64,000 nucleotides of DNA from Lonicera japonica. Its lineage: Eukaryota; Streptophyta; Magnoliopsida; Dipsacales; Caprifoliaceae. A model generated the notes under the pieces. The model saw only the letters and a list, made by a program, of their open reading frames with translations, searched no databases and was not told the DNA's origin. The DNA lies in NCBI GenBank assembly GCA_021464415.1, contig CM038468.1, positions 26,309,369-26,373,368 of the forward strand, given 5' to 3'. Of this stretch, positions 44,354-63,385 are shown piece by piece. The position numbers and the translations under genes are program-made. Positions within the stretch are counted from its first letter, which is position 1. Each line of letters starts with the position of its first letter.

Positions 44354-44460
44354 TGTAGACACCCCGATCCGTGACCCCCGCAAGAACCCTAACGACCTCC
44401 GAGAACTACTATTTTGGGTCCAGGACCCACCCGAGGACCCGGTACTACACTAGGAGGGTT

Positions 44461-44719
44461 TGTCGCCCGACAAACTTGTTTTTTTAGAGAGATTGTCGCA
44501 CGACATATCACATTGTCGCGCGACAATCCCTGATATGTCGCGCGACAATTCCACTATGTCGCACGACATTCCCCCTCTGCACCAGACCAACCACTTTCTG
44601 ACACATCAATCTGTCAGAACCATCACTTCAGCCGTTTGTCGCGCGACATTCCCGTATGTCGCGCGACATATCACAATGTCGCGCGACATTCTCCTTTTTT
44701 AAGGAAATGTCGCGCGACA
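44461..44719 (+). promoter_or_regulatory. palindrome array in the 5' LTR (nine TGTCGCGCGACA-type sites)
   Basis: Sites start at 44461, 44494, 44514, 44536, 44557, 44637, 44657, 44677 and 44708. Six are perfect TGTCGCGCGACA; 44461 has GTCGCCCGAC, and 44494 and 44557 have GTCGCACGAC. Intervals are 33, 20, 22, 21, 80, 20, 20 and 31 bp, mostly two or three helical turns. The last site ends 15 bp before the TATA box. Each perfect site contains three CpG steps. The arrangement suggests an array of protein-binding sites in U3. Confidence 0.85.
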
Positions 44720-44734
44720 ATCTCTCCCGAGCAG

Positions 44735-44742
44735 TATAAATA
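44735..44742 (+). promoter_or_regulatory. LTR TATA box
   Basis: TATAAATA lies 15 bp after the last palindrome and is followed by GC-containing sequence where transcription of the genomic RNA would start (about 44765). Confidence 0.8.
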
Positions 44743-44844
44743 GGCCAACACCCCCAAGGGTTCAAAGGAGGCAATTAGAATCCGAGAATTTGGTGCTTTA
44801 GATCTGATTTTTGTCAAGCATTTCTTTACTATTATCTTATTTCT

Positions 44845-45136
44845 GAAGAATTCTCGAATCTATTTTTAACACTCGACGTGTTCCGTTTCTGGAATCGATT
44901 TCTCGGAAATATCTGAAGAAAGAGAAGATTACTATCGCCAGAGATCCCTCTGCCGTATTATATTTTCTTTCTTATTATTATTCTCGTCGGGAAGAATTCT
45001 CGAATCTATTTTTAACACTCGACGTGTTCCGTTTCTGGAATCGATTTCTCGGAAATATCTGAAGAAAGAGAAGATTACTATCGCCAGAGATCCCTCTGCC
45101 GTATTATATTTTCTTTCTTATTATTATTCTCGTCGG
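44845..45136. repeat. 146-bp tandem duplication inside the LTR
   Basis: The unit starting GAAGAATTCTCGAATC at 44845 recurs at 44991 without visible change. The same duplication is in the 3' LTR (62159-62450), so it predates this insertion or spread by reverse transcription. Confidence 0.95.
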
Positions 45137-46072
45137 GAAGGTAAAGAAAGTCCCTTCTAGTATTTAAAATTAGATATCTGTGTACTTGTTTTACTTCTGT
45201 TATTCTGTCCACGTTTTATTTGAATAAACTTATTGTCAAGTTCCCAATAGTCTACCGTTTTCAAAACAAAAGGCCCTGATAAAACTACTTTTAAAACTAG
45301 AAGAGTAAGTACATTATCGTCCGGATAAACCGTGTTTTCAAAACCCCGGACCGATAAAGACTTATCTAGGAATTAAAATCCACATATCCTGTCTTTTTCA
45401 TAGACTGCGACGTGTCTGATAAACTCTCCTCAAAGAGTTCAAATTCCATATTGAATTAGTCCCGACATAAAGATCCGAACCTTTTTCAGAATAATCACAA
45501 CTCGAGAAAACCGTCATTATCTGAGGAAATAATACGGAACACTCTTTCAAAAATAAAAGGTTTTTGTCATTTGTCATTTACATCTTTTAAATACAAAAAC
45601 GTCGGATCTCGGAACACAAAGGTTTTCATCCCTTTCCCCGTTTCCCCAAATTAGGGTTTTTCTTCATTTAGAAAGTAGTAGACTGTCGGTAAAAGCATCC
45701 AAGTTTTTCAACATAGAATAAACATATAAGACCACTAGAGACCGAAAGGGCGGAATGGGTGCTTAACACCTTCCCAAACCGTAATATAGTTTCCGAACCC
45801 TATAAGAATCCCGGTTTCGCAGACAAACGTGTAAAGAAAGGCTTGTCTATAGCCTTTCCTCTTACACGACCTTTTTTGTCCGTTTTCTCGTAAAACGTAC
45901 TGGCGACTCTGAATGAACCCCCTTGCATCTAGAAATAGAACGTAGGGACACTTGATATGAATCAAATGAAAACGCTCCAGCAAATGGAACGACGGAATCA
46001 GTTCCGACGTCCCAGGACCCCCACCACCAACGGGGACGAGACCCGGGAGGTCGCATTTGCGGATTCTCACAG

Positions 46073-46092
46073 TGGCGACTCTGCTGGGGACA
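46073..46092 (+). other. primer-binding site
   Basis: TGGCGACTCTGCTGGGGACA follows the LTR after one base. It begins with the TGG that pairs with a tRNA CCA end. From memory Ogre/Tat elements use tRNA-Arg; the exact tRNA here was not checked. Confidence 0.8.
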
Positions 46093-46823
46093 GTATTAGA
46101 AAACTAGACTCTTATATGTGGACCTTTGTTTATCTGTTGAAAACTTGCTTTTACTGCTTTCCCTACTCATGTTAATTGATTGAGAAGAAACCTTTTTCTA
46201 AAAAATGGGAGTTTTTCGAAAAGACGTAATAAAGATAATGATATTTGTGAAACCAACCTTTCGAACTTTACACGCACTATCACAAATCATGCATTGGTTC
46301 TACGAGTGTGAATTTACCCCAAACCCTCGGAAGTATTATAAGTGAGTAGGGAGTTGGCTTGCTTGGGCCAACATAAACCGAAAGCATTTACTTCCACTCT
46401 CCTTGGCCAAGTACGCCCCCGAGGTATATCGAGTGACGAGAACACTCACGTACCCGGGAAGTATATCAAAAGATTCTTGCACGTACCCGCCCTTGGGGTA
46501 TATCGCAAGGTCTTGCCAAAAAGGAGGGAGCCTGAAGCCTTAACCGTTCGAACACCTACGCTGCATCTAAGATTGAGTCAGTTAAAACACTTGTCATACA
46601 GCTGTAGGGGATGTACCACCTTACGGCTTACTTTACCACACCTGTTTTCCGAGGTTTTCTCTCGACCATTTTTAGTGATTCTTTTGGCAAAAATCGAGTC
46701 ACATCATAGTCTCCCTTCATCTTCGCCACGTGGTTTCGTCTACAGCCATAAAGCGGCGTCAGTCTGGAAGGTTGGGCCGGTCGAGATCATACCGGAAGAC
46801 TAGTAAGACCAAGCATACCTGAA
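46093..46823 (+). other. untranslated leader of the retrotransposon
   Basis: Leader sequence between primer site and gag. It contains a 153-codon ORF (46342-46803) in another frame that resembles no domain I know and is probably fortuitous. Confidence 0.6.
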
Positions 46824-49800
46824 ATGGCCGATGGACGAGAGAATCAGGAGACAAATCAGAGCCTAGCCGAGGCGTCTGCAGTTCAACCGACTTTAGCAGA
46901 GATGCACCGTTTGTTGATGACCGTCAGCATGAATTTGGCAAGCCTCACAAGTGAGCAACAGAACACCCGGATTCGAATGGAAGAGTTGTCAGCCGAACGG
47001 ACCGCACCACCCGGGTTTGAGCAACTACCACCGAATCGAGATCCGAATCAAGGGCAATCTTCACAAGTACTTCCCCCAATCCAAGGAACCAATCCACCCC
47101 AAACGGGCCCCAACATGGCCGGTCCCGTTCAAACCGACCCCAACAATCAGAACCAATGGGCCCCGGATTCAGGCCCCACATACCAACAACAAGAGCCACC
47201 CATCGTCTGGCCACAACCTCAGCAAGGCCTCGATCCCCAATATCAACCATGGCCACAAGTCCCCGCAAGACCTATTCCACCAGCCCCAATAGCCCCTCCC
47301 AATGAGTACCCAGACATCAACCGACTCCGGGCAGTATACGCAGAATCGATGATAGCCCGGGAACAGCCCGATGAGGTGTCAAGAGAGAGCGAAGAAATGA
47401 AGAAATTGAAAGAGCAGATGAAGGTTCTGCAAAGAGGTGTTTCTCTGATGAAAGGGGCAGACGAGATCACAGACATGAACACCTTTTCCCTCTACCCAGA
47501 AGCCAGACTACCTCAAGGATTTAAGCTCCCCTCTATCACCAAATTCACTGGTACTACACCCCCCAAAACCCATCTCCAATCCTACATCAGATCCATGCAA
47601 GTGTCCGGCTGTGGAGAGCCGGAGCTGGCTCAGGCTTTTCACATGACTCTCACGGGGGCAGCCCTGAGATGGTTCTTCGACCTAGAGAAACACCACACGA
47701 AAACTTGGGGGGATATCGTCAAAGAATTCATGACCAAGTACGGGTCCAACGAGAATTTGGAAATTACCCGTAAACACCTGGAAATGGCCAAGCAAGGCGA
47801 GAAAGAAAGCTTCAGCGACTTTGTCACCCGCTGGAGGGAAATGGCATCCCAAATGTCCAAACGGCCCGACGAAGAAGAGCAGTTAGAAATCATACAGAAG
47901 AATTTTACTCCAGCTGTATTGAACTGCATGGGAAAGCATGTATTCCCACACTTCAGAGCCCTGTTGAGTATGGGGTCACAGGTAGAGGAAGAATTGGCCA
48001 GAAAGGCGGACACGGATACCAAGAAGGCCTCTTACACTGGAAGAAAGACGGCCACTCCAGCCGTAAACCAACTAAGCTCGTACCCATATCAACAAAACCC
48101 ATTTCAGCAGTCACCGCAGGTCCCCCCAATGAGTTGGCCTACGCAAGGAGACTCTTCAAACACCGAGGTCAAGAAAAGGAGAAATTTCTGCACCCTCCCC
48201 ACTACTCTGGTCAAAAGCCTGGAACTACTCCAAAAGGCCGGACTAGTCACCCCACTCAACCCACGCCCTCCACCAAATCCTATTCCCAACACTTGGAGAA
48301 TGAATGAGAACTGTGCGTACCATCAGGCGGCAGGCCATGACACGGAACGTTGTTTAGCTCTCCGCCATCGTATTCAGGACCTCATTGAAGCCGGAACCAT
48401 CCCCGCACCCGGCGGGCCCAATGTTACCAACAACCCCCTCCCCAATCATGCTCCACCTGCAGGAATTAACGCCTTAACCACTGATGAAGGCTTTGATCCC
48501 GTAGGACTCATTCGGGACGATTCAGCCTATAAGGCACCCGTTATGCTATCGGCAAAAGCACAAGTTGCCCCAGGCCTCAACCCAATAATTGACCAATGGA
48601 TGGCCAAGATGAACTTCCTACCTGGGCAGGGCTTAGGAAAGACAAATCAGGGGATCTCGCAACCCCTCACCATCAAAACCAATCCTGGGAAAGCTGGGAT
48701 AGGATGGACCCAGGACAAGAAAAAACAACCATGGAAACCCCGCCCCCCTCATAAGGAGACGATATGTATGACAGAAACCTCCCCCGGGACTTTTAGTTGG
48801 TCGGCAGAACCAGAGTCGTCAGAAACTTCAGAGGGATCAGACCTAACATCCCTTTGGATACAACAGATTACCCGCTCAGGAAAGGTATACCAGCCACCAC
48901 CGATGGATGCCGAAAAATCACCGCCTCCAAAAGAAGTAGGAGAAGACCGAGTACTGGAACAGTTGAAGAAAACCCAGGCACACATCACCATTTGGGGCCT
49001 CTTGGTTGCCTCCAAACCTCACAGGACCGCTTTCATTAAACTCCTGGATGAGGCTGTCATATCGCCGGACTCCACGCCCGAACAACTGCCAAACATGATC
49101 GGGTCACTCACAGTCCAAAGAAGTCTGTCATTTTCAGATGAAGACTTGTCTCCGTTGGGGAGAAAACACAGCCTGGCTCTCCATATCACCGTCCGAACCC
49201 GAGGGAAGATCTTGCCACAAGTTCTCATCGACAATGGGTCGACCATAAATGTCTGCCCCCTAAAGACTGCCAGATGCTTGGGTATCTCAGATTCAGAGCT
49301 CTCACCATCCGCTGTAACCGTCAGGGCCTATGATAATACCAGGAGGGCCGTTCTGGGGTCTCTGAAACTTGATCTCATGGTTGGTCCCGGAAGCTTCCCG
49401 GCCGACTTTCAAATCATAGACATTCCTTCCAGTTTTAACCTACTGTTGGGAAGAGCATGGCTACACGACATAGGAGCACTCCCCTCCTCCTTGCACCAAA
49501 AGATCAAGATACCGTTTGAAGGGAACATAATTACCATCCAAGGAGATCCTGAAAGGACCTTGGCGGATATGGAGTTACCAGTTTTGGGAATCGGGAGCCA
49601 GAGCATACAGTTAGGAGGCTTTTCTTACGAGCCTCAAGTGCAAACTCTTAGCACCCAGACAATCAGGTATCTTCCCCCTGACAATATCCCCGGTCTCAGC
49701 ACCAAGATTACAAATATGTTGAGAATGATGAAATACTTGCCTGGAGCCGGTCTAGGGAATGGGACAACCAGGACTACTTCAAGCATTGGAACCAGTAGCA

Positions 49801-49838
49801 AGGTACGAGAGGGAAGGTTTGGGGTACCAACACACTGA
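46824..49838 (+). CDS. gag-pro: gag-protease polyprotein of the Tat-type element
   Basis: A 1004-codon uninterrupted ORF. The retrotransposon capsid region centres on HMTLTGAALRWFFDLEKHH near residue 273. A variant zinc knuckle (CAYHQAAGHDTERC, about residue 497) has His in the second position, as in related Tat elements. A G-patch-like segment (FLPGQGLGKTNQGI) is near 598. The aspartic protease is near 800 (VLIDNGSTINVCPL), with the later LLLGRAWLHDIGA block near 872. The capsid would package the genomic RNA; the protease would cut the polyprotein. Pol lies in another frame, and the two ORFs overlap by 80 nt. The ATG at 46824 is the first good start after the leader. Confidence 0.93.
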   Translation: MADGRENQETNQSLAEASAVQPTLAEMHRLLMTVSMNLASLTSEQQNTRIRMEELSAERTAPPGFEQLPPNRDPNQGQSSQVLPPIQGTNPPQTGPNMAGPVQTDPNNQNQWAPDSGPTYQQQEPPIVWPQPQQGLDPQYQPWPQVPARPIPPAPIAPPNEYPDINRLRAVYAESMIAREQPDEVSRESEEMKKLKEQMKVLQRGVSLMKGADEITDMNTFSLYPEARLPQGFKLPSITKFTGTTPPKTHLQSYIRSMQVSGCGEPELAQAFHMTLTGAALRWFFDLEKHHTKTWGDIVKEFMTKYGSNENLEITRKHLEMAKQGEKESFSDFVTRWREMASQMSKRPDEEEQLEIIQKNFTPAVLNCMGKHVFPHFRALLSMGSQVEEELARKADTDTKKASYTGRKTATPAVNQLSSYPYQQNPFQQSPQVPPMSWPTQGDSSNTEVKKRRNFCTLPTTLVKSLELLQKAGLVTPLNPRPPPNPIPNTWRMNENCAYHQAAGHDTERCLALRHRIQDLIEAGTIPAPGGPNVTNNPLPNHAPPAGINALTTDEGFDPVGLIRDDSAYKAPVMLSAKAQVAPGLNPIIDQWMAKMNFLPGQGLGKTNQGISQPLTIKTNPGKAGIGWTQDKKKQPWKPRPPHKETICMTETSPGTFSWSAEPESSETSEGSDLTSLWIQQITRSGKVYQPPPMDAEKSPPPKEVGEDRVLEQLKKTQAHITIWGLLVASKPHRTAFIKLLDEAVISPDSTPEQLPNMIGSLTVQRSLSFSDEDLSPLGRKHSLALHITVRTRGKILPQVLIDNGSTINVCPLKTARCLGISDSELSPSAVTVRAYDNTRRAVLGSLKLDLMVGPGSFPADFQIIDIPSSFNLLLGRAWLHDIGALPSSLHQKIKIPFEGNIITIQGDPERTLADMELPVLGIGSQSIQLGGFSYEPQVQTLSTQTIRYLPPDNIPGLSTKITNMLRMMKYLPGAGLGNGTTRTTSSIGTSSKVREGRFGVPTH

Positions 49839-52800
49839 AGAGGACGATCAACAAAAAAGGGGTCGAGGGCATCAGTATCCGAGTTTCAGCTCTCTGAACG
49901 GGTTCTTTGTCAAAGAAGGAGAGGACTTCCCCTTTTGCGGCTTCCAGGAGCCTTGGAGAAACAGCGACGGAGAGAACCTTCCTGGGTGGGAAATCTTCTA
50001 TGAAGAGGACCTATATATCAAAGAAAACACCGTACACAGCTTCGCTACCAAGTTGACAATCGGGCCGAAGGAAGAAAGTGAAGACATGAAAGGCGAAGAG
50101 GAAGAAATGATCGGAGATCTCTTCGACATCATGGCTCTGGGAGATGATGAGCCAGGAGACGACCCTGTACACTTGATATACGCTGATCCAGACTACCAAG
50201 GGGAAAGGGAAAAGAGCGAAATTGTAAGGGTGAGAGATAAGAGTGAGGGTAAGGATAGGAAGGAGTCACTCCTAAATGAACTTTTTAAACTTGTACCTGT
50301 AAATACTAGTATCAATAAAGAAGAGTCTATTTTGCGTTATCCTGTTATTTTTAATTCTGTAATTGCTTATATGGAATTGGAAAGAATGAACGAACACCCT
50401 GAACGGGAGGAGCAACGTATACAAAGCGAGGAAGGAGACACTCTTGTGATTAACCTCGGAACAGAGGAGGAAAGAAAAGAGGTCCGCATTGGGGCAAGCC
50501 TAAGTGGGACAGAGAGAGAAGAATTCACACAAACTCTGAAAGAGTATGTGGATGTCTTCGCCTGGTCTTATGCAGATATGCCGGGTTTGAACAGTCAGAT
50601 AGTCATGCACGAAATACACACCAATCCAGAACTTAGGCCCGTCAAACAGAAGCTGAGGAAACTTACGCCAGAATGGTCCTTGAAAGTGAAAGAAGAAGTA
50701 ATGAAACAACTGAGTGTGGGATTCTTACGGGTGATCGAGTACCCCTCGTGGTTAGCCAACATCGTGCCTGTTCCAAAGGCTAACGGGAAAGTCCGCATGT
50801 GTGTGGATTACCGGGATCTCAATAAAGCTTGTCCAAAGGACGATTTTCCATTACCCAACATCGATTTGATAGTAGATAATACTGCCAACCACGCCCTGAA
50901 GTCATTTGTGGATGGTTTTGCCGGATATAACCAGATCAAGATGCACCCGGATCACCAGGAGAAAACAGCATTTATCACACCATGGGGAACATACTGCTAC
51001 ACCGTTATGCCGTTTGGGCTGAAGAACGCCGGGGCAACATATCAGAGGGCAGCTACGGCTATCTTTCACGACATGATTCACAAAGAAGTAGAGGTGTATG
51101 TAGACGACATGATAATCAAGTCAAAAGAGAGGGAAGGCCACGTACCAGCCTTGCGAGCCTTCTTTGATCGGCTCCGCCAGTATCAGATGAGACTCAATCC
51201 GCAGAAATGTGTGTTCGGGGTAACCAAAGGAAAACTCCTGGGATATGTCGTCAGTAAGAAAGGAATCGAGGTGGACCCCGCTAAAGTTCAAGCTATCCAA
51301 GACATGCCCGAGCCTCGTACCGAGAGAGAAATCCGGGGTTTTTTGGGTAATCTGCAGTACATCAGTAGGTTTATCTCTCAGCTCACTCAAAAGTGCGAAC
51401 CCATCTTCAAACTCCTGAGGAAGTCTTCAACAGGAGAATGGAACGATCAATGCCAGGAGGCTTTTGACAAAATCAAAGATTACCTCTCCAAGCCCCCAGT
51501 GTTAGCCCCGCCTCAGACCGGACTACCACTAATTCTGTACCTAACCGTCACTGATTCAGCCGCAGGAGCAATGCTAGCCCAACACCTCACCGATACCCGG
51601 AAGGAGCAGGCCATCTATTTCCTCAGCAAAAAGCTATCCCCATTTGAGATAAACTACACACCATTGGAAAAATCGTGTACCGCTCTCGTCTGGGTAACAC
51701 AGAAACTACGGCACTACATGCTAGTTTTTCCAGTCATCCTGGCATCACGGATTGATCCGTTGAAATACCTCTTCGAGAAACCGGCTCTCTCGAATCGAAT
51801 GGCAAAATGGTTATTTCTACTCTCCGAATTCGACATCACCTACATGACCCAGAAGGCAGTCAAAGGCAAGATCATAGCTGATTACCTGGCCCACAATCCG
51901 ATATTGGGAGACATGATAGAAGAAGCCGAATTCCCGGACGAAACCATCATGAACGTCGAGATCAATGAAGACTGGAGGTTGTACTTTGACGGGGCCGCCA
52001 ATCGGAACGGAAACGGGATAGGCATCCTGTTAGTCTCTCCAGACCAAACTCACTCCCCGGTATCATATCGACTGGACTTCTTCTGCACCAACAATATGGC
52101 CGAATATGAAGCCTGCATACTCGGGTTAGAGATCGCTTTTCAAAAGGGTATAAGGAGGATACAGGTATACGGAGATTCAGCACTAGTGGTCCATCAAGTT
52201 CTGAAGGAATGGAAGATCAGAGATGAGAAATTGGTCCCTTACCTCGCCCGACTAGAAGAAGTCGCAGGAAGGTTCGAGCGTGTGGAGTTTTACTATATCC
52301 CCAGGTCCCAGAACAGTTTTGCTGACGCATTGGCAACCCTGGCATCTATGATCGATATTCCGGAGGGGATGGAAGAAATAACCCTCACGGTACAAAAGAA
52401 ATCAGGACCCGCGCACTGCATGACCCTTGAGGTGGAAATTGAAAAAGACGGTGACTCAACCGTTTGGTTTTATGATATCTGGAACCTGCTGAAGAACCAT
52501 CAGTATCCCGAGAAAGCAGACAAGAGAACACGGGTCACACTCAGGAGACTAGCATCAGGATTCATACTCTGTGCCGGAAGATTATATAAGAGGAACTACG
52601 ACGGGACTCATCTTCAATGTCTCACCGAAGAAGAATCAGTTAGAATGATGGATCAGATACATGGGGGCGATTGCGGACCTCATATGAGCGGGCATACGCT
52701 TGCCCGCAAGATCATCAGGCAAGGGTATTTCTGGTCTACCCTACAAACTGACTGCGCTGATCATGTACGCCGTTGTCACAAATGCCAAATTTATGCTAAG

Positions 52801-53709
52801 TCCCAGAAGCTTCCTCCAAAAGAGTTGTACAACATGACTGCTCCCTGGCCTTTTTCAGCCTGGGGAATTGACGTCATTGGGAAAGTCTCACCCAAAGCCA
52901 GCAACGGCCATGAATTCATACTAGTAGCCATCGACTACTTCACCAAATGGGTGGAAGCCGAATCTTACCAAACCCTGGATGCCAGGAAAGTTGCCCGATT
53001 CATCAAAAGGAATATTGTCTGCCGATATGGGGTCCCACACGAGATCATCTCAGATAACGGCACCCACTTCGAAGGAGAAGCTAATACAGTCATGGAGGAA
53101 TACGGTATCACCCGACACAAATCTTCGCCATATAGACCACAAACCAATGGGGCAGTTGAAGCCGCCAACAAGAATTTGAAGAATATCCTAAGCAAGATGA
53201 CCGACACCTGCCGGGACTGGCCGGAGAAATTACCATATGCATTGTGGGGATACCGCACCACCGAAAGGGTCTCTACCGGGGCAACCCCGTTCTCGCTTAC
53301 ATACGGGATGGAAGCAGTCCTCCCTGTCGAGTTAGAGGTCCCTTCCCTCAGAGTAATGCTAGAGAATCAGGTCAATGAACTGGAGTGGGTCCAGGCACGT
53401 TATAACGAGCTAGCCTTACTAGATGAGAAAAGATTGAAAGCCGCATACCACCATCAAGGATATCAGAAGAGAATCGCTCGAGCATTTAACCAGAGAGTGA
53501 GGACTCGGGGTATCACTGAAAATGACATCGTGTTGAAAGAAATTCGAGAGCCAGCCAGAGATCCGAGGGGAAAGTTCGGGCAGAAGTGGACAGGGCCGTA
53601 TATCGTCAAAGAAATCAATACAGGGGGCGCCGCTATACTCACTGACCTAGACGGGCAGTTACTACATTCACCAGTCAACATGGACCGACTGAAGAAGTAT
53701 TATCAATAA
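49759..53709 (+). CDS. pol: pol polyprotein: reverse transcriptase, two RNase H domains, integrase
   Basis: A 1316-codon intact ORF. RT: PVPKANGKVRMCVDYRDLN near residue 336, catalytic YVDD near 447. RNase H of the gypsy type: about 580-720 (LSPFEINYTPLEKSCTALVW). Second RNase H: about 736-870, with Asp in LYFDGAANRNG, Glu in NMAEYEAC and Asp in VYGDSALVV, and ADALATLAS at the end. Integrase: HHCC finger near 967-1010 (HGGDCGPHMSGH; CHKCQ), then Asp in WGIDVIG (about 1036), Asp in ISDNGTHF (about 1096) and Glu in GAVEAANKNL (about 1131). All catalytic residues checked are present. Its frame is +1 relative to gag-pro. A TAG at 49753 in the pol frame means any switch must fall between about 49756 and 49838, by frameshifting or splicing. 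The ATG at 49759 may not be used. Confidence 0.95.
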   Translation: MGQPGLLQALEPVARYEREGLGYQHTEEDDQQKRGRGHQYPSFSSLNGFFVKEGEDFPFCGFQEPWRNSDGENLPGWEIFYEEDLYIKENTVHSFATKLTIGPKEESEDMKGEEEEMIGDLFDIMALGDDEPGDDPVHLIYADPDYQGEREKSEIVRVRDKSEGKDRKESLLNELFKLVPVNTSINKEESILRYPVIFNSVIAYMELERMNEHPEREEQRIQSEEGDTLVINLGTEEERKEVRIGASLSGTEREEFTQTLKEYVDVFAWSYADMPGLNSQIVMHEIHTNPELRPVKQKLRKLTPEWSLKVKEEVMKQLSVGFLRVIEYPSWLANIVPVPKANGKVRMCVDYRDLNKACPKDDFPLPNIDLIVDNTANHALKSFVDGFAGYNQIKMHPDHQEKTAFITPWGTYCYTVMPFGLKNAGATYQRAATAIFHDMIHKEVEVYVDDMIIKSKEREGHVPALRAFFDRLRQYQMRLNPQKCVFGVTKGKLLGYVVSKKGIEVDPAKVQAIQDMPEPRTEREIRGFLGNLQYISRFISQLTQKCEPIFKLLRKSSTGEWNDQCQEAFDKIKDYLSKPPVLAPPQTGLPLILYLTVTDSAAGAMLAQHLTDTRKEQAIYFLSKKLSPFEINYTPLEKSCTALVWVTQKLRHYMLVFPVILASRIDPLKYLFEKPALSNRMAKWLFLLSEFDITYMTQKAVKGKIIADYLAHNPILGDMIEEAEFPDETIMNVEINEDWRLYFDGAANRNGNGIGILLVSPDQTHSPVSYRLDFFCTNNMAEYEACILGLEIAFQKGIRRIQVYGDSALVVHQVLKEWKIRDEKLVPYLARLEEVAGRFERVEFYYIPRSQNSFADALATLASMIDIPEGMEEITLTVQKKSGPAHCMTLEVEIEKDGDSTVWFYDIWNLLKNHQYPEKADKRTRVTLRRLASGFILCAGRLYKRNYDGTHLQCLTEEESVRMMDQIHGGDCGPHMSGHTLARKIIRQGYFWSTLQTDCADHVRRCHKCQIYAKSQKLPPKELYNMTAPWPFSAWGIDVIGKVSPKASNGHEFILVAIDYFTKWVEAESYQTLDARKVARFIKRNIVCRYGVPHEIISDNGTHFEGEANTVMEEYGITRHKSSPYRPQTNGAVEAANKNLKNILSKMTDTCRDWPEKLPYALWGYRTTERVSTGATPFSLTYGMEAVLPVELEVPSLRVMLENQVNELEWVQARYNELALLDEKRLKAAYHHQGYQKRIARAFNQRVRTRGITENDIVLKEIREPARDPRGKFGQKWTGPYIVKEINTGGAAILTDLDGQLLHSPVNMDRLKKYYQ

Positions 53710-53936
53710 GCACGACATGTATAAGAACTACGTAAACCTGAGCCCCAACTCGAATATTGTATTTTCTGGAAAAAATCAAAAAGGGGGGAACGTAGGCAAC
53801 CTGAGAAGTGACTTCAGGCCCGGTTTAAAGCTTTGTAAAGAAATTTATTTCTCATAAAAAGTCCCTTCATATATTATTAAAGAGGTGGTTCAGAACACCG
53901 AGAGTTACAAAGGAAGTACAGCATACAAAGAAGAAA
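53710..53936 (+). other. post-pol spacer with polypurine tract
   Basis: Shortly after the pol stop, AAAAAGGGGGGAA (53778-53790) precedes ACGTAGGCAACCTGAG, a tail I recall as common after pol in Tat elements. It looks like a polypurine tract but is 7.9 kb from the 3' LTR. No gene. Confidence 0.6.
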
Positions 53937-55193
53937 CTAATCCCTAGGGGTTGGCCACACTGGGTCCTCAGCGGCCAAATCAATTCGAGCCTCATCCAAA
54001 ATCTGGTACGCAAAGACAATGCCATCCTCTGTAGGCTCAGAATCCATGAATCGGAACCACTCCATTTGAAAGGGGTCATCAATCAGCTCTCCTTCTAGAG
54101 ATTGCCAGCAATAGCGGATAATGTCAGCCCGGAGGGGCCTGGAAATACCAAAACGGGCATAGTTAAACTGACGAGTCAGTCGAGCACGCCACATCCTCTC
54201 TACCAATAAAGAAACATGTGGGGTCACAAATTTAGACTCAGAAGAGAAGTTGTTCAGACCAAGGGGAACCTCCTGAGGAATGTTAAACTGCCGAAGAAGA
54301 CGCCCAGGGAGGTAAAAGGAAGTAAACCAGAGCCCGCGGAGCCGAACGTAGTTCTGACCCCCAGTGCTAAGTACCATCGCCCTCAGCTTCCACCAAGGAA
54401 TGTTCCACCGGATAGCCCGAAAGTTCTCCGAAAACCACACCGTCCAATCAGAGGAAGACATGGTCAAAGCACCAAAGAGAGGCCGATGGAAGAAATGAGT
54501 CGGATTGTCGAGCCGAACTCCGCTGAAACCCACCGATCGAAAGCGCTCTAGCAGCCACATGTATAGCAGACGCGGGCTCCCCCGGAAGAAGGGCGAGGCC
54601 CCCCGTTGAACATCATCAAGACCATTCAAGGTCTCTGCAAGAATGATCGGCACTATAGACTCCCCATTTCTAGCCTGGTAAATCAGACTCAAGATAGTCG
54701 GATCAACACGGGAAGAACCTGTCACCAGCAGCATATCAGAAACCAGGCAAATCAGGGCCGCTGCAGTACGCCCCACGCCGTAAGAGGCCCTATCTTCATA
54801 ACGATGAAAGAACCTCACCATTTTGTGGAGGTCAAGGAGACCGTCGACAATGAAACCATCGCAGGCCGCTTGGGGAATGGCTAACAGAGCAATTAGCATG
54901 TCGCGGGGACCGATTCCTTCTATAGGAACTGCCATCGGGAGACGAACGTCAGAACGTAACAGCCAGGAGAACTCCTCATAGGTTGGGCAGAGCTCATCTA
55001 GTCCAAAACGGAAGAGATGGTCCGCAGGACTCCAGAAATACAAGGCACCTAAAAGAAAGGAGAAATCTACAGGACGATGGCACCAGCCCGCCAAAGGACT
55101 GAATGCACCAAAGTTCAAACCATTTTCAGAAGATATCAGAGCATCTCGAGCTTTAACATAAGAAAAATCAGAGTTGGTACGGTAGGAAGACAT
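53937..55193 (-). CDS. antisense ORF of the retrotransposon, DUF7745-like
   Basis: A single-exon ORF of 418 codons on the strand opposite gag-pol, running toward pol. The segment ALYFWSPADHLFRFGLDELC followed by PTYEEFSWLL resembles the N-terminal pattern (FWDP...FRFG..EL.PT.EE) that I recall from plant DUF7745 proteins, a group linked to the plant mobile domain. The rest is helical and rich in aromatic residues. No catalytic motif, membrane segment or zinc-binding site was seen. It has its own promoter: TATAAATA at 55232-55239 (minus strand) and three palindromes beyond it. The predicted 5' UTR is very short (roughly 15 nt). Function unknown; an element-encoded regulator is one possibility. 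Confidence 0.75.
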   Translation of the reverse strand: MSSYRTNSDFSYVKARDALISSENGLNFGAFSPLAGWCHRPVDFSFLLGALYFWSPADHLFRFGLDELCPTYEEFSWLLRSDVRLPMAVPIEGIGPRDMLIALLAIPQAACDGFIVDGLLDLHKMVRFFHRYEDRASYGVGRTAAALICLVSDMLLVTGSSRVDPTILSLIYQARNGESIVPIILAETLNGLDDVQRGASPFFRGSPRLLYMWLLERFRSVGFSGVRLDNPTHFFHRPLFGALTMSSSDWTVWFSENFRAIRWNIPWWKLRAMVLSTGGQNYVRLRGLWFTSFYLPGRLLRQFNIPQEVPLGLNNFSSESKFVTPHVSLLVERMWRARLTRQFNYARFGISRPLRADIIRYCWQSLEGELIDDPFQMEWFRFMDSEPTEDGIVFAYQILDEARIDLAAEDPVWPTPRD

Positions 55194-55231
55194 TTTGGAG
55201 AGGCGTGGGGATGAAGGAAGGAAGATGGGTG

Positions 55232-55239
55232 TATTTATA
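55232..55239 (-). promoter_or_regulatory. TATA box of the DUF7745-like antisense gene
   Basis: TATAAATA on the minus strand, about 40 nt before the ATG at 55193. Confidence 0.7.
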
Positions 55240-55265
55240 GCAAAAAAGAGGGTCCTGTACCTGTT

Positions 55266-55341
55266 TGTCGCGCGACAAACCCATTTTCAGGGGGAAGTGT
55301 CGCGCGACAAACCCATGACCAGGAGGGATTGTCGCGCGACA
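55266..55341 (-). promoter_or_regulatory. palindrome array upstream of the DUF7745-like gene (three sites)
   Basis: Three perfect TGTCGCGCGACA sites at 55266-55277, 55298-55309 and 55330-55341, exactly 32 bp apart, about three helical turns. The nearest is 26 bp upstream of the TATA box. This is the same site as in the LTR arrays. Confidence 0.85.
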
Positions 55342-55653
55342 AACCCATCTGGGGGGCACCCTACTTGTTTCCTTATACATAATGGTCATTTTTGCCAAAA
55401 GAATCACTTCTGGATGCCTTTCTGTTCTCACTTTGTTCTTTTTTGCAGGAAACATAAGTATCACTACACTACAAGGTATGACTTTTAAATTACCGACTCT
55501 TATATATATATGTGTATATATCTTGCACAGACAGAATAAAAGTATAATCAAACACAGATAAAGATATTTTATAAAACCAATAAAAGAACAGTTTTTAAAT
55601 ATCTGTCTAAGCACATCTGTCCAAAACTAACGACTTAGTGCAGAAAGGGAAAA
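55342..55653. other. spacer between the two antisense genes
   Basis: About 310 bp of non-coding sequence that should hold the 3' end of the plant-mobile-domain gene (minus strand). AATAAAAG near 55536 lies on the opposite strand and is not informative. No gene. Confidence 0.5.
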
Positions 55654-58600
55654 CTAATCTACTCGGGCGCGTTTTGACACGCTCCCACTATCTCCCGAGC
55701 CCTCCTCGGGGGTAAGATCAACAACTGGGACGCCGGGAACAGAAGGAACTGCCGCCTGAGAAGGCCCCGTGGACTGGACCGGTGCCGTAGGACGGATCAC
55801 CGACGATCGGGAACGCCTGGAAGTCCGACTACTGCTCCTCCGAGAATCCGTCCGGGCATGGGAGGAAGTCAGGGGGTCGTCCGGCCGTAAGGAGACGTCG
55901 ATAGCCCTCTGATAGTCGCGCATGTATGCTGGAGGGTCTCGACCGACGTACTGGAGCAGGTTCCAGCTGTAGAAATACTGGGAATACCAGGCCCGTAGGT
56001 CTGCCACCCGTACACCCACTCTCTGTGAAAAGACATAAGATAAGAGGAGAGTCAGCACAGTCAAAATAAATAGATATAAACAGGAAAGTATCAGGAGAAG
56101 TTGAAGAAGATACCTCATCATCAGAGCGACCACCCAAGAAATCAAAAGTATCCTCGGGAAGGGGATACTCCGGGACAGAATATCGACATAGGCCCGCGCC
56201 GACATAAGAAATATCTCTGGGGAGTGGAGGTAGATCTACCCACGAAATAGATGACCCCGCAGGAGCAGCTGCAGAAGAAGACCCTCCCTCCTCACGAATG
56301 GGGAACAAGGGTGGACGAGAGGATGAGCCGCCAAAGCCCGGAGATCGGGCGGGAGGCCCCATGACAGTCGCCGGTAGAGGGGTCAACGTAGCATATGTTC
56401 GGACCCCCGGAGGATCCACCATGGCCGTCGCCCCCAAAGGAGGTACCCCACTAGAAGGAGTAGTCGCCGCCGCGGGAGGAGTCCGCCCAAACTGATCAAA
56501 ATCTGCCCCAAGGTCCGCGGGCTCCCAGGACCTCTCAGAAAATCCCGCTCTCCCCTCAGCAGCCTCAGCAGCAGCAAAAAGGCCCCCCGGAGACACGGAA
56601 GGGCCGGTGGGAAACTCGAAGCCCTCAGCACGCTGCTCCCCCGCAGGTGTCGCCTGAGGTGACGGCTCCGGAACGGCTGTCGCATCACCTCCCTCGCCCT
56701 CTGGCCGACCACCGCCCTCAGCCGCAGCAGGAACATCCCTCTCTCCCTCAGGATCCTCATCCTCAGAATCCGGAATGTTGTCCCTCTGATCGGGGACAGG
56801 TGGCAGATGACCCGGAACCACCCTAGCTAAATGGGTCTGTCCCCGTATGTAATGAGGATCACCCCCCAATGCCCGATACCTCTCATAGAAGACCCGTCCC
56901 CGAGTCCCCTTCGGCTCCCTCATCAGGTAACGGGCAGCAAAAATAGCATAGTCTCCCTCCTCGACGAACGTCTGGAAGCCGAGTCCGTCAACCAAAGCCT
57001 GCACCGTCACCGGGTCGATCTCGCCCGTCCGCCTCATCAGAACAGGAGGGAACAATGGAACACGAGGCCACTGGGATGGCGTGTGCTGACGAATGACCCT
57101 CTCACCCAAGTAGAAGAGAAGGCCGTACTCATCCCGGATAAGCCGCCTGGTCCTCGAGGCGGTCAGAGCACGGCCATACCCATAATGATGACCCAGATCA
57201 CCCCAAGGGGCCCACTCAATCTGAAAAGAGAATAAGATTTTATTTCAGTATTTTATATATTCTACTCTATCTGACTATTGAAAAGCAAGAAAACTAAAAA
57301 TATTTTACCTGCTCCTCCCGCAGATCATGAACAGCAGCAGCTCCGGTCTCCCGAGTCCGGTATACATAGGGAGCCCTATAGTTCCCCGCGATGAATCGGC
57401 GGAGAAAAGGGAACTGGTCCTCGTTCTCAACGAGGAGATCCACCTGGGCGCGACCCAGACGGGTATAAGCTACAAACCAGCTCTGAAAAGGAAAGATAGA
57501 AGAAATCAGCAATGATCAACAAGTAATGAGCAAAGAACTGAAGCAAAGACAGAAAGACTAAAAAATGTACCTCCCACAGCAAAGAAAAGCCCTTGAGGTT
57601 CAGGGCTAAATGACGAGAGACCTGGTCCATGGCATCGTAAAGGACTGCAAGAATGAAGCCTCCCCAGTCGTAGTCAAACAGGAGGCTAAAGTCCCGAAGA
57701 TAGGGCAACCACCAAAGATGAGCCGTGTCCCCACCACGAGCCTCGAATAGATCATGAAGTGTCAGTAGAAGGAGGACGCGGGCATACTGACGCGCCTCCT
57801 GACGGGTCATAGGAACCCCTGAAGCGACTAGCCGAGCCCTCTCTGTGGCTAAACGCGTAACCAAGACGCCCCGAGGAATCGTGTCACCAGAACTCCGCCG
57901 CTCCGGGAACCATCCTAATGAACTAACAATGCCCTCGGCTGTCAGACGCAGGGGAACGTCGATCTGAATAGGGACCCCCCCTGAAGGAATCCCGGTCAGA
58001 GCAAAAAGATCAAGGGGTGTCATCGTCATCTCACCCCAGCTCCAGTGAAAAGTATGAGTAGTATCCCACCAGTGGCAAGCCAATGCCGACACCAAAACTG
58101 TCGCCCTAGAAACCCGCTCCGGGAGGGCGTCGAAGAGGGAGCCAAAAGGAGTCGCAAGAATCAACTCCTGGATAGGGGCCGGTGCCCGTCGCCACTCCGA
58201 AGATATAGTGTTGGGGGAACCCCAACCGCGGCCAACCCACTGCAGACAAAGGAACGAATATGGGGTTATGAGGGTACTTTGGTGTAATTATGAGAGTTAT
58301 AGGGCTATAGGTGTAAATTATGTAATTTTCCAAAACCTGAGGGTACTTTGGTGTAATTATGAGAATATGGGGTTATGAGGGTACTTTGGTGTAATTATGA
58401 GAGTTATAGGGCTATAGGTGTAAATTATGTAATTTTCTAAAACTTGAGGGTACTTTGGTGTAATTATGAGAGTTATAGGGCTATAGGTGTAAATTATGTA
58501 ATTTTCCAAAACCTGAGGGTACTTTGGTGTAATTATGAGAGTTATGGGGTTATGAGGGTAAATTATGTAATTTCCAAAACCTGAGGGTACTTTGGTGTAA

Positions 58601-59774
58601 TTATGAGAGTTATAGGGCTATAGGGGTAAATTATGTAATTTTCTAAAACCTGAGGGTACTTTGGTGTAATTATGAGAGTTATAGGGCTATAGGGGTAAAT
58701 TATGTAATTTTCTAAAACCTGGGAGTACTTTGGTGTAATTATGAGAGTTATAGGGCTATAGGTGTAAATTATGTAATTTTCCAAAACCTGAGGGTACTTT
58801 GGTGTAATTATGAGAGTTATGGGGTTATAAGGGTAAATTATGTAATTTCCAAAACCTGAGGGTACTTTGGTGTAATTATGAGAGTTATGGGGTTATGAGG
58901 GTAAATTTCCAAAACCTGAGGGTACTTTGGTGTAATTATGAGAGTTATGGGGTTATAAGGGTAAATTATGTAATTTCCAAAACCTGAGGGTACTTTGGTG
59001 TAATTATGAGAGTTATGGGGTTATGAGGGTAAATTTCCAAAACCTGAGGGTACTTTGGTGTAATTATGAGAGTTATAGGGCTATAGGTGTAAATTATGTA
59101 ATTTTCCAAAACCTGAGGGTACTTTGGTGTAAATATGAGAGATGTGGGGTTATAAGGGTAAATTATGTAATTTCCAAAAACCTGAGGGTACTTTGGTGTA
59201 ATTATGAGAGTTATAGGGGTTATAAGGGTAAATTATGTAATTTCCAAAACCTGAGGGTACTTTGGTGTAATTATGAGAGTTATAGGGGTTATAAGGGTAA
59301 ATTATGTAATTTTCCAAAACCTGAGGGTACTTTGGTGTAATTATGAGAGTTATAGAGTTATGGGGGTACATTATGTAATTTTCTAAACTAAGAGGTATCA
59401 CAGGTAAAAGTATGTGTTCGCTAAAAATCGGGCGTTATTCCTAGTCAGACATGCATACTAACACTATCTAAAACGAATACAGGAAATGACAAGAAGCAGA
59501 ACAGATAAATGCACGAAAGAAGACATACCAGAGATCGACGACGAATCTCGTGAGAAACGGGCTCCATCAAAAGCCACGGGACGTCCGGGACCGGAGCAGC
59601 TCGGATAGCATCCCGATAGACCACCGCCCGACCGCGGTCTATCCCATCCTCATCATACCAGTCCAAATCCGCCCAGTCGTCGTGATGAGGGCTGCAGCGA
59701 AGAACGCCCTGAGCGTCAGTAAAGGTGACCTCCTCCTGGTCACCCTCCAATCGGTCGAGATGAGTAGGGTCCAT
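55654..59774 (-). CDS. antisense plant-mobile-domain protein of the retrotransposon, five exons
   Basis: Exons 59774-59529, 58239-57571, 57482-57309, 57220-56114 and 56022-55654 all join at codon boundaries with GT-AG introns, giving 854 residues plus stop. Exon 2 carries a plant mobile domain (PMD): ALACHWWDTTHTFHWSWGEM, then TMTPLDLFALTGIPSGGVP, the pattern shared with MAIN-like and aminotransferase-like PMD proteins. Exon 4 adds a Pro/Gly/Ser-rich acidic linker. Exon 5 ends with an Arg/Ser cluster (SRRSSSRTSRRSRSS) and terminal KRARVD, possible nuclear signals. Intron 1 is mostly a 69-bp minisatellite. It starts from its own promoter inside the element. Arabidopsis MAIN and MAIL1 (PMD proteins) affect transposon silencing; whether this protein acts on silencing is inference. 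Confidence 0.85.
58262..59400. repeat. minisatellite of about 17 units in intron 1 of the antisense gene
   Basis: Units of about 59-70 bp (mostly 69) start around TGAGGGTACTTTGGTGTAAT and continue with ATGAGAGTTAT and a variable end. I count about 17 occurrences of the GTACTTTGGTG core. Several subtypes (GGGCTATAGGTG, GGGGTTATAAGGG, GGGGTTATGAGGG) alternate in blocks, so higher-order duplication has occurred. Confidence 0.93.
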
Positions 59775-59921
59775 CAATATAGGTAGAATATATGTGAAAA
59801 GGTCGGAAAAGTCAAAAACACGGCAGAGCTTCCGCGCTTGGGAGAGAAGAGAAGAGAGAAAAAGAGAGCTAGAGAGAGAAAGAGAAAGGAGAGAATGAGG
59901 TGGAATGAGCTCAGCAAGGGG

Positions 59922-59929
59922 TTTATATA
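59922..59929 (-). promoter_or_regulatory. TATA box of the plant-mobile-domain antisense gene
   Basis: TATATAAA on the minus strand, 148 bp before the ATG at 59774. A purine/pyrimidine-rich leader (GA-rich on the plus strand at 59840-59900) lies between. Confidence 0.7.
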
Positions 59930-59940
59930 GTGGGTCAGTT

Positions 59941-60005
59941 TGTCGCGCGACAAATGGCCACATTGTCGCGCGACAAAGAGCCAGGCACCGAAGTGTCGCG
60001 CGACA
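59941..60005 (-). promoter_or_regulatory. palindrome array upstream of the plant-mobile-domain gene (three sites)
   Basis: Perfect TGTCGCGCGACA sites at 59941-59952, 59964-59975 and 59994-60005 (intervals 23 and 30 bp). The nearest is 11 bp from the TATA box. Confidence 0.85.
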
Positions 60006-60835
60006 ATCCCCCCTCTTCCCTGATTTTTTGACCTCTGTCTCATTTTATCTTCTGCAGAGGCACTTCGGAGAAGCAGTTTTCGGAAAATTGCTAAAAACCG
60101 CACACCCATGATAAAAAGTTCAAAGAGAAAACTTCCAAATCATCTCTCCGAAAAAATGCGAAAACAGAATGCCGCGATTAAAAGTAGTCTCTGATCTCAC
60201 AGAAGGACCGAGACCATCAAATAATGAGAAAAGGCAGAATGCCACGATAAAACGGGAATGGAAAAAAATTGAAAAAGTAGAAAAGAGAAAGAACCCGTAT
60301 GAGCGCCCAGAGCGAGCGAGAGAAACAGAAATGCAGAGTGACAGGGAGAGCCACACCAAAAGTGACAGCTAGGCCAAAACCGGCTCAGGGCTTCGTTTTG
60401 GGTGAGTAAGGCTCCTGATCACAACAAAGGGACAAAAGGACTCCTGGTCAAAAACAGAGAGGGCCAGGAAAAGTCTTTCCCAAAAGAGGGAGAAATAAGG
60501 GCATCGAAAAAACAGAAAACGATGTGGGCCCACCAAAAGAGAAAACTAAGAAAAGAATAAAGATCAGAGATTGAACTTTCAAACAAATTTTCTTTTCAGC
60601 ACGATACAGAAGAGATGATTTGGAAAACCTCGGACCATCACTCTACGGAGAGCGAAGAAATCCGAAAACTGCCTTCTGAGTGAAACATCTTCACCCGAGG
60701 AAAACATGAGAGTAAAGTTCAGAAAGATACGGGGAAACGGACATCCGGAATAGACCCTGAGAAGCTCTTTTTACCTTCGCAAAAATCTACTCTCTCTCTC
60801 ACTCTAGCAGTCTAAGAGAGGCAATTCACCAACAC
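60006..60835. other. 3' non-coding region of the retrotransposon
   Basis: A-rich and G-rich on the plus strand, with no recognisable gene. It includes the distal upstream region of the antisense PMD gene. Confidence 0.5.
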
Positions 60836-61560
60836 AAGCCCTCTCCGGAGGCAATGCACAAACACAAGCCCTCTCCGGAGGCAATGCACAAACACAAGCC
60901 CTCTCCGGAGGCAAATTCACAAACACAAGCCCTCTCCGGAGGCAATACACAAAATCACAAGCCCTCTCCAGAGGCAAGAGTTACTCATGAAAGCCCTCCC
61001 AGAGGCATTTTTTTTCCTTCTTCTTTCAGATCTAGAAGCCCTCCCAGAGAGGCACAATGGTAGTCCTCCCACCTGAGGCGAAGCCCTCCCAGAGAGGCAC
61101 AACGGTAGTCCTCCCACCTGAGGCGAAGCCCTCCCAGAGAGGCACAAACGGTAGTCCTCCCACCTGAGGCGAAGCCCTCCCAGAGAGGCACAACGGTAGT
61201 CCTCCCACCTGAGGCGAAGCCCTCCCAGAGAGGCACAACGGTAGTCCTCCCACCTGAGGCGAAGCCCTCCCAGAGAGGCACAACGGTAGTCCTCCCACCT
61301 GAGGCGAAGCCCTCCCAGAGAGGCACAAACGGTAGCCCTCCCACTTGAGGCGAAGCCCTCCCAGAGAGGCACAAACGGTAGTCCTCCCATCTGAGGCGCA
61401 ATGGTAGTCCTCCCACCTGAGGCGCAAAAAAGATCAATGGTAGTCCTCCCATCTGAGGCAAGTGGAGCAAGTCAAAGCCCTCGAAAGAGGCAACGAGGTA
61501 ACAAAAGCCCTCTCCGGAGGCAAAACCAAACACGAAGCACTCTCCGGAGGCACTCACAAG
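60836..61560. repeat. two tandem-repeat families before the 3' LTR
   Basis: 60836-60980 holds about four or five copies of a roughly 30-bp unit (CACAAGCCCTCTCCGGAGGC). 61035-61460 holds about eight copies of a 45-46-bp unit built of AGCCCTCCCAGAGAGGCACA and GGTAGTCCTCCCACCTGAGG. The two units share the CCTC...GAGGC dyad and may have a common origin. Long ORFs in several minus-strand frames here are by-products of the repeats. Confidence 0.9.
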
Positions 61561-61654
61561 CACTTTTTGCATAAACACTCCGATAGAGTTCATGCGGGAG
61601 CCATGGATCATGGTCTCTTCCAGTCGCCTCAATTCCTTGCAAGCAAGGAGCTTG

Positions 61655-61667
61655 AGTCGAGAGGGTC
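61655..61667 (+). other. weak polypurine tract at the 3' LTR
   Basis: Only GTCGAGAGGGTC stands immediately before the 3' LTR. The purine run is short and interrupted compared with 53778-53790. Confidence 0.4.
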
Positions 61668-63385
61668 TGTAGACACCCCGATCCGTGACCCCCGCAAGAA
61701 CCCTAACGACCTCCGAGAACTACTATTTTGGGTCCAGGACCCACCCGAGGACCCGGTACTACACTAGGAGGGTTTGTCGCCCGACAAACTTGTTTTTTTA
61801 GAGAGATTGTCGCACGACATATCACATTGTCGCGCGACAATCCCTGATATGTCGCGCGACAATTCCACTATGTCGCACGACATTCCCCCTCTGCACCAGA
61901 CCAACCACTTTCTGACACATCAATCTGTCAGAACCATCACTTCAGCCGTTTGTCGCGCGACATTCCCGTATGTCGCGCGACATATCACAATGTCGCGCGA
62001 CATTCTCCTTTTTTAAGGAAATGTCGCGCGACAATCTCTCCCGAGCAGTATAAATAGGCCAACACCCCCAAGGGTTCAAAGGAGGCAATTAGAATCCGAG
62101 AATTTGGTGCTTTAGATCTGATTTTTGTCAAGCATTTCTTTACTATTATCTTATTTCTGAAGAATTCTCGAATCTATTTTTAACACTCGACGTGTTCCGT
62201 TTCTGGAATCGATTTCTCGGAAATATCTGAAGAAAGAGAAGATTACTATCGCCAGAGATCCCTCTGCCGTATTATATTTTCTTTCTTATTATTATTCTCG
62301 TCGGGAAGAATTCTCGAATCTATTTTTAACACTCGACGTGTTCCGTTTCTGGAATCGATTTCTCGGAAATATCTGAAGAAAGAGAAGATTACTATCGCCA
62401 GAGATCCCTCTGCCGTATTATATTTTCTTTCTTATTATTATTCTCGTCGGGAAGGTAAAGAAAGTCCCTTCTAGTATTTAAAATTAGATATCTGTGTACT
62501 TGTTTTACTTCTGTTATTCTGTCCACGTTTTATTTGAATAAACTTATTGTCAAGTTCCCAATAGTCTACCGTTTTCAAAACAAAAGGCCCTGATAAAACT
62601 ACTTTTAAAACTAGAAGAGTAAGTACATTATCGTCCGGATAAACCGTGTTTTCAAAACCCCGGATCGATAAAGACTTATCTAGGAATTAAAATCCACATA
62701 TCCTGTCTTTTTCATAGACTGCGACGTGTCTGATAAACTCTCCTCAAAGAGTTCAAATTCCATATTGAATTAGTCCCGACATAAAGATCCGAACCTTTTT
62801 CAGAATAATCACAACTCGAGAAAACCGTCATTATCTGAGGAAATAATACGGAACACTCTTTCAAAAATAAAAGGTTTTTGTCATTTGTCATTTACATCTT
62901 TTAAATACAAAAACGTCGGATCTCGGAACACAAAGGTTTTCATCCCTTTCCCCGTTTCCCCAAATTAGGGTTTTTCTTCATTTAGAAAGTAGTAGACTGT
63001 CGGTAAAAGCATCCAAGTTTTTCAACATAGAATAAACATATAAGACCACTAGAGACCGAAAGGGCGGAATGGGTGCTTAACACCTTCCCAAACCGTAATA
63101 TAGTTTCCGAACCCTATAAGAATCCCGGTTTCGCAGACAAACGTGTAAAGAAAGGCTTGTCTATAGCCTTTCCTCTTACACGACCTTTTTTGTCCGTTTT
63201 CTCGTAAAACGTACTGGCGACTCTGAATGAACCCCCTTGCATCTAGAAATAGAACGTAGGGACACTTGATATGAATCAAATGAAAACGCTCCAGCAAATG
63301 GAACGACGGAATCAGTTCCGACGTCCCAGGACCCCCACCACCAACGGGGACGAGACCCGGGAGGTCGCATTTGCGGATTCTCACA
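61668..63385 (+). repeat. 3' LTR
   Basis: Same length and boundaries as the 5' LTR, including the nine palindromes (61775-62033), the TATA box (62049-62056) and the 146-bp duplication (62159-62450). One base differs: T at 62665 for C at 45351. Confidence 0.97.
61775..62033 (+). promoter_or_regulatory. palindrome array in the 3' LTR (nine sites)
   Basis: Identical to the array in the 5' LTR, offset by 17,314 bp. The same three sites carry the single mismatches, so those changes were present in the template before insertion. Confidence 0.85.

Follow-up and report, generated by a model that had tools for sequence, protein, structure and literature searches.

One palindrome at three predicted promoters of a Tat/Ogre-type retrotransposon in Lonicera japonica

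Palindromic arrays at the TATA boxes

Why should a single retrotransposon carry the same 12-bp palindrome in front of promoters on both of its strands? The question is raised by an element of about 19 kb, assigned to the Tat/Ogre type of Ty3-gypsy retrotransposons, that occupies positions 44354-63385 of a 64,000-bp stretch of the Lonicera japonica genome (contig CM038468.1 of assembly GCA_021464415.1; hereafter the window, numbered from its first letter). Arrays of the palindrome TGTCGCGCGACA precede the predicted TATA boxes of its two 1718-bp long terminal repeats (LTRs) and of two antisense genes, AS1 and AS2. The arrays at all three promoters are probably read by one shared factor (probability about 0.7), most likely a dimer, since the site is two-fold symmetric, and the putative co-regulation is well supported by conservation.

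An exact scan of the window gave 18 matches (none in 100 shuffles), and a scan allowing up to two mismatches gave 24 against 0.40 expected, namely the 18 exact sites and six one-base variants. Every one of them lies inside the element, nine in each LTR and three each at AS1 and AS2, and the rest of the 64-kb window contains none at up to two mismatches. Both scans agree with the count and the confinement given in the initial annotation of this locus; its span of 44461-60005 does hold the 5' LTR, AS1 and AS2 arrays but omits the nine 3' LTR sites included in its total of 24. The arrays, the boxes and the antisense genes are located as follows.

44461..44719: U3 (unique 3' region) array of nine sites, six of them exact and three off by one base, from the motif scan
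44735..44742, + strand: predicted TATA box for sense transcription from the LTR, 15 bp beyond the array
53937..55193, - strand: antisense gene 1 (AS1), 418 aa, DUF7745/plant mobile domain (PMD) superfamily
55232..55239, - strand: predicted AS1 TATA box, 46 bp upstream of the start codon
55266..55341: AS1 array, three exact palindromes with a 32-bp period, the nearest 26 bp from the TATA box
55654..59774, - strand: antisense gene 2 (AS2), spliced model drawn by eye, with exon 1 from 59774, the PMD exon near 57600-58240 and the end at 55654
59922..59929, - strand: predicted AS2 TATA box
59941..60005: AS2 array, three exact palindromes, the nearest 11 bp from the TATA box
61668..63385, + strand: 3' LTR, with nine sites at 61775-62033 and the TATA box at 62049

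The measured distances between the nearest site and the TATAWAW motif (the value of 15 bp holds for both LTR copies) bear out the range of 11-26 bp reported initially. On both strands of the element TATAWAW occurs 19 times; a site lies no more than 30 bp upstream of four of these occurrences, two of which represent one LTR box. When the three arrays were placed at random, none of 20,000 trials put all three beside a TATA box. The boxes themselves are predicted transcription starts.

The site has a CGCGCG core, and its dyad symmetry, already pointed out in the initial annotation, is kept even where the letters are not. The most distal U3 site (44461-44472) reads TGTCGCCCGACA in the window copy, TGTTGCGCAACA in the related copy E, and TGTTGGCCAACA in copy C and one LTR of copy B, with near forms in copies A and F and in the other LTR of B; letters are altered on both sides and the two-fold symmetry is retained. 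Such symmetric replacement fits either a dimer site or a folded strand.

Conservation in related copies

Relatives A, B, C and E were each picked through at least one exact site, and of C only the 3' LTR was found. Their blastn identity to the window copy is 84-94% across gag, pol and AS1; it is 78-93% for parts of AS2 and 68-88% at the promoters. All four have arrays at all three promoters, with some sites decayed, and array length varies: the AS1 array, with three sites in the window copy, consists of two in A, B, C and E, and the U3 arrays range from four to nine. A motif scan of related copies had been proposed beforehand as a test by which the claim of marked promoters could fail, and it found the arrays conserved at these promoters.

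Sites changed less than their flanks (gap cells were excluded from identity counts, and gapped codons from the ratios of nonsynonymous to synonymous divergence, dN/dS, given below). At the AS1 and AS2 promoters taken together, site positions differing from the window copy numbered 0/60 in E, 2/60 in A, 4/60 in B and 4/60 in C, compared with 73/505, 98/502, 83/507 and 83/505 flank positions, respectively (one-sided Fisher p 0.00015, 0.00046, 0.03 and 0.029). With the three promoters of E pooled, 5/168 site and 131/843 flank positions differ (p 7.4e-07), and in nine U3 comparisons the sites are identical at 0.88-0.96 of positions and the flanks at 0.76-0.83. Of the ten differences at AS1 and AS2 sites in A, B and C, nine (counted by eye) are CpG transitions, C-to-T or G-to-A, and match the decay of methylated cytosine that would be expected after insertion. 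AS1 is interrupted by in-frame stops, 3 in A, 5 in B, 2 in C and 1 in E. Identity within LTR pairs is 90.6% for the U3 of A, and 91.6% and 98.5% for LTR pieces of B and E. Given the diverged LTR pairs and the AS1 stops, A and B owe some of their divergence to post-insertion decay.

As the relatives had been chosen through an exact site, a sample blind to the palindrome was added. Twenty AS1 copies were taken by protein likeness from the 102 scored matches (of 3372 candidates) of P0003, a protein 34% identical to AS1 that was used as a distant query for a family with a different palindrome. To favour other subfamilies, copies with the common frame lengths of 449 and 431 were passed over, and 551 bp around the start were compared. 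The AS1 array is present in 19/20 copies, with two or three sites of no more than two mismatches each; the proximal site is exact in 18/19 of them and the distal site in 14/19. In the remaining copy (L072, G000:C9:7549200-7549750) a deletion of some 65 bp, bounded by short direct GCACAG repeats, has removed the array. A switch to another palindrome was not met among the 20 sampled matches, 19 of which carry the same one.

Pairwise diversity was calculated over 20 rows, the window copy and 19 blind copies, L072 being omitted as it has no array to align. At the AS1 promoter it amounts to 0.000 for the TATA box, 0.008 for the proximal site and 0.050 for the distal site, 0.113 in the spacers, 0.132 in the 5' untranslated region and 0.198 in the 150 bp upstream; within AS1 it is 0.080 at codon positions 1 and 2 and 0.238 at third positions. 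The sites are conserved above both flanks and synonymous sites. AS2 stretches were fetched for four blind elements and covered the promoter in three (that of L090 began beyond it); all three promoters have three sites, 7/9 of them exact and two with a CpG transition. Three exact AS1 sites are also found in 30/30 of the best AS1 matches, young copies that were kept out of the selection evidence because they are near-identical.

Genome-wide occurrence

The exact 12-mer occurs 29,561 times in the host genome (886 Mb), compared with one occurrence of the reversed control. Fifty distinct sites from the start of contig C1 were examined; they fall within 14 stretches, each of which proved to be part of this retrotransposon family. 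Two stretches with short U3 matches (L008 and L009) were considered as another family and rejected, both being LTRs of the same family; their fetched flanks contain no protein match to gag, pol or AS1. The family looks large and young: a first look gave 4443 AS1 candidates, and the 100 that were scored are all 99-100% identical.

Antisense proteins

The annotation of the two antisense products as PMD and DUF7745-like proteins was upheld. The PMD exon of AS2 scores 63.6 bits (cut-off 34.9, E 2.4e-17). The PMD score of AS1 itself, 17.3 bits, is below the same cut-off, but P0002, a relative with 45% identity, scores 27.8 against DUF7745, above the cut-off of 26; judged by these matches, AS1 is a member of the DUF7745/PMD superfamily. 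Both antisense proteins are under selection. The dN/dS ratio is 0.08-0.13 for AS1 (dS 0.20-0.58, four relatives) and 0.05-0.07 for the AS2 PMD exon (dS 0.32-1.13), compared with 0.09-0.13 for pieces of pol (dS 0.31-0.69). By this measure AS1 and AS2 are real genes under purifying selection, with dN/dS like that of pol.

Structure prediction and searches for AS1 gave little. The AlphaFold model, built from 12 sequences, is poor (mean pLDDT 57.3), its first 220 residues being better than the rest; Foldseek found no fold match in PDB at E <= 0.001 (best E 2.6), a profile search of PDB sequences had 0 matches at E <= 1, and no relatives were found in the viral and prokaryote collections searched. 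The TRP28 domain (PF04195) has no match in eight open reading frames (ORFs) of the element at E up to 0.01, a scan that covered spliced AS2 by pieces only, or in protein P0005 at E up to 0.1.

AS1 has its best protein match, at 96% identity, in Lonicera macranthoides. Residues 1-41 of the L. macranthoides gene model P0001 equal the in-frame translation of the AS1 promoter of the window copy, TATA region included, except at two positions, one a stop and the other a substitution; the comparison was made with the protein record only, and the N-terminal residues include those encoded by two palindromes. This NCBI gene model seems to begin inside the promoter.

Candidate readers of the palindrome

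The arrays would serve as upstream promoter elements of three predicted RNA polymerase II promoters, those of the sense LTR, AS1 and AS2. One sequence-specific factor would bind the palindromic repeats immediately preceding each TATA box and could thereby couple the output of genomic RNA to that of the two antisense PMD-type proteins. Binding, dimerisation, direction and simultaneity are what we infer; activation appears more likely than repression, judging by the position just upstream of the TATA box.

Several observations weigh against reading by one shared factor. L072 keeps its TATA box and an open AS1 frame despite the loss of the array. Sites of old copies decay too, for example the proximal U3 site in one LTR of A, which has two mismatches, and site columns in the comparison with the relatives were set by motif likeness, which introduces some bias toward conservation. 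Helical phasing of the site spacing was tried and is unconvincing (period 10.5, p 0.0003-0.023 by null model), because the spacings are not independent and periods of 10, 11.5 and 12 scored higher. Finally, sense-strand RNA spanning the arrays has a much stronger fold than shuffled sequences (z -14.4 for U3, -5.3 for AS1 and -4.4 for AS2), which would also suit a structural role of the palindromes.

As to what reads the sites, we lean toward a host transcription factor, followed by an element-encoded PMD protein and then by mainly RNA or DNA structure. A host factor may read the optimised arrays alone, the antisense genes merely sharing the LTR promoter module, and we give this an even chance. 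Its candidates we take to be factor classes with a CGCG-type or TGTC-type half-site. The stability of the motif over long divergence speaks for a host factor, as does the fact that repeated LTR motifs are usually read as host-factor sites; those of Sireviruses were compared mainly with stress-factor sites (PMC2829016). However, no host promoter with the 12-mer was found among the 50 sites examined of the 29,561.

A self-regulating circuit is doubtful. In it, an antisense PMD/DUF7745 protein would bind the palindrome at the LTR, at its own promoter and at that of its partner, and would act as an activator or an anti-silencing factor in the manner of the VANC proteins of VANDALs, which are DNA transposons. 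The palindromes do sit at the promoters of AS1 and AS2 themselves, both proteins are under purifying selection, and the motif is apparently private to the family, to which the listed sites examined are confined. Moreover, the element shares the presence of PMD in an extra ORF with 57% of Ogre elements (PMC6317226), and the host PMD proteins MAIN and MAIL1 are needed to express genes with a common promoter motif (PMC7156037, PMC9899485). On the other hand, no DNA-binding fold was found for AS1 in the poor AlphaFold model or by PDB matches, the papers on PMD proteins leave direct DNA binding open (PMC7156037, PMC9899485), and the motif is stable across dS 0.2-1.1, unlike VANC motifs (PMC5735166). 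Somewhat less probable still is a closed circuit in which AS1, AS2 or both would bind the family-private palindrome at the LTR and at their own promoters; it would switch genomic RNA and its regulator together and might keep methylation off the CpG-rich sites.

It is improbable that the palindromes are kept for folding (dimerisation, packaging or small-RNA production) and not as protein sites. Besides the folding excess, the symmetric replacements at the distal U3 site would suit such a role, and Sirevirus palindromes attract small RNAs (Bousios 2016, as cited in PMC10760457). However, each array lies just upstream of a TATA box, so that the AS1 and AS2 arrays fall outside their own predicted mRNAs, and the letter-exact proximal AS1 site in 18/19 blind copies goes beyond the needs of pairing. 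Neutral tandem duplication, with the arrays as functionless leftovers of slippage, would explain the variable array length (two or three sites at AS1, four to nine in U3) but is very improbable, as the sites are placed at three TATA boxes and are conserved above flanks and synonymous sites despite their CpGs.

Comparison with known systems

The initial annotation knew of no such system in Tat/Ogre elements. That part stands: searches of the open-licence literature, which leaves subscription papers mostly uncovered, turned up no report of a palindrome shared by LTR and antisense promoters of Tat/Ogre elements, and the 12-mer itself occurs there in one unrelated chicken paper. The closest precedent was missed, however. 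Sireviruses (Ty1/copia) have CpG-rich palindromic motifs in 8-32 copies per element. The motifs lie in the LTR, ahead of its TATA box, and nine elements have a further cluster preceding the ENV-like gene (PMC2829016). These RM boxes resemble the present arrays in standing both before the LTR TATA box and before an extra gene. The two systems differ in domain order (integrase before reverse transcriptase in Ty1/copia, after it here), in the motif core (CGG-CCG in 12/13 Sirevirus motifs, CGCGCG here) and in motif constancy, as the Sirevirus motif differs between elements, whereas one motif occurs throughout the copies compared here. The Sirevirus extra gene is in sense orientation, with an internal promoter that was not conclusively identified (PMC2829016), in contrast to the two antisense genes of the element.

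The analogy with VANC proposed in the initial annotation holds in two respects: non-coding parts of a single transposon family repeat a short motif, and arrays gain and lose copies along with tandem repeats (two to three at AS1, four to nine in U3). In VANDALs, binding of the motif by VANC has been demonstrated (PMC5735166), whereas here binding is a prediction. The analogy is weak on two points. Related families have different VANC motifs, and parts of the VANC proteins are highly variable (PMC5735166). Such motif turnover was not seen here, where A, B, C, E and 19/20 blind copies, all from a single family in a single genome, share one 12-mer. On the protein side, AS1 and AS2 have pol-like dN/dS; their only matches are to PMD/DUF7745.

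Antisense genes are a recurrent feature of large plant retrotransposons and have been described as of unknown function (PMC7264820, PMC11963269). In Grande, antisense ORFs have their own promoter (PMC7264820). Antisense TRP28 (PF04195) is found in 97% of Retand clusters, and a regulatory role of these proteins has been proposed (PMC11963269); unlike the Retand ORFs, those of the element here do not contain a detectable TRP28. No shared promoter motif is described for antisense ORFs of Retand, Grande and RIRE2 in the excerpted parts of these reports (PMC7264820, PMC11963269). MAIN and MAIL1 act on genes with the DOWN motif (PMC7156037, PMC9899485) and so provide another case of PMD proteins linked to promoters with a common motif, but they belong to the host, and the DOWN motif as given for MORC1, CATGCAGTTT, is not palindromic, unlike TGTCGCGCGACA. 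Finally, cis-regulatory regions of several transposable element families consist of arrays of sometimes palindromic repeats, with no antisense genes or shared promoters named in the excerpts (PMC10760457).

A conserved motif joining the LTR and both antisense promoters ties the antisense genes to the control of the element, and the Sirevirus-like layout, with one palindrome at LTR and extra-gene promoters, is now found in the Ty3/gypsy superfamily. The shared palindrome offers a single DNA probe for fishing out its reader. The closed circuit, if true, would be a retrotransposon counterpart of VANC and would provide a biochemical function for the plant mobile domain, the mode of action of which is described as largely unclear (PMC9899485).

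Element anatomy and neighbouring features

The 5' and 3' LTRs differ by one mismatch (99.94% identity over 1718 bp). The remaining parts of the element are as follows.

44354..46071, + strand: 5' LTR, ends TGTAGACACC...TCTCACA, from boundary comparison of both LTRs
both flanks of the element: target-site duplication GTCGT, read from the sequence
46073..46092, + strand: primer binding site TGGCGACTCTGCTGGGGACA, read from the sequence
46824..49838, + strand: gag ORF with Retrotrans_gag and G-patch
49759..53709, + strand: pol ORF with reverse transcriptase, RNase H, second RNase H (RVT_3) and integrase

The primer binding site may be of the tRNA-Arg type; the 64-kb window has no tRNA to pair with it. 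In Ogre elements this site is antisense to tRNA-Arg (PMC9289625). The gag and pol genes are on the plus strand, and AS1 and AS2 are both on the minus strand between pol and the 3' LTR. The pol domains follow the order RVT_1, RT_RNaseH, RVT_3, H2C2, rve, that is, integrase after reverse transcriptase with a dual RNase H, the latter being a Tat feature (PMC9289625). The domain content points to the Tat/Ogre type, either Ogre or another Tat clade.

The element also contains several internal repeats. About a dozen units of a 69-bp tandem repeat lie at 58269-59370, within the predicted first intron of AS2, and 45-bp tandem repeats are located at 60990-61374, between the AS2 array and the 3' LTR. 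Each LTR has a 146-bp direct duplication downstream of the TATA box (44826-45140 and 62140-62454). Outside the element, the window contains an ORF with a MULE transposase domain (36458-37333) and a UDP-glycosyltransferase open frame of 493 aa (5844-7325), likely a host gene.

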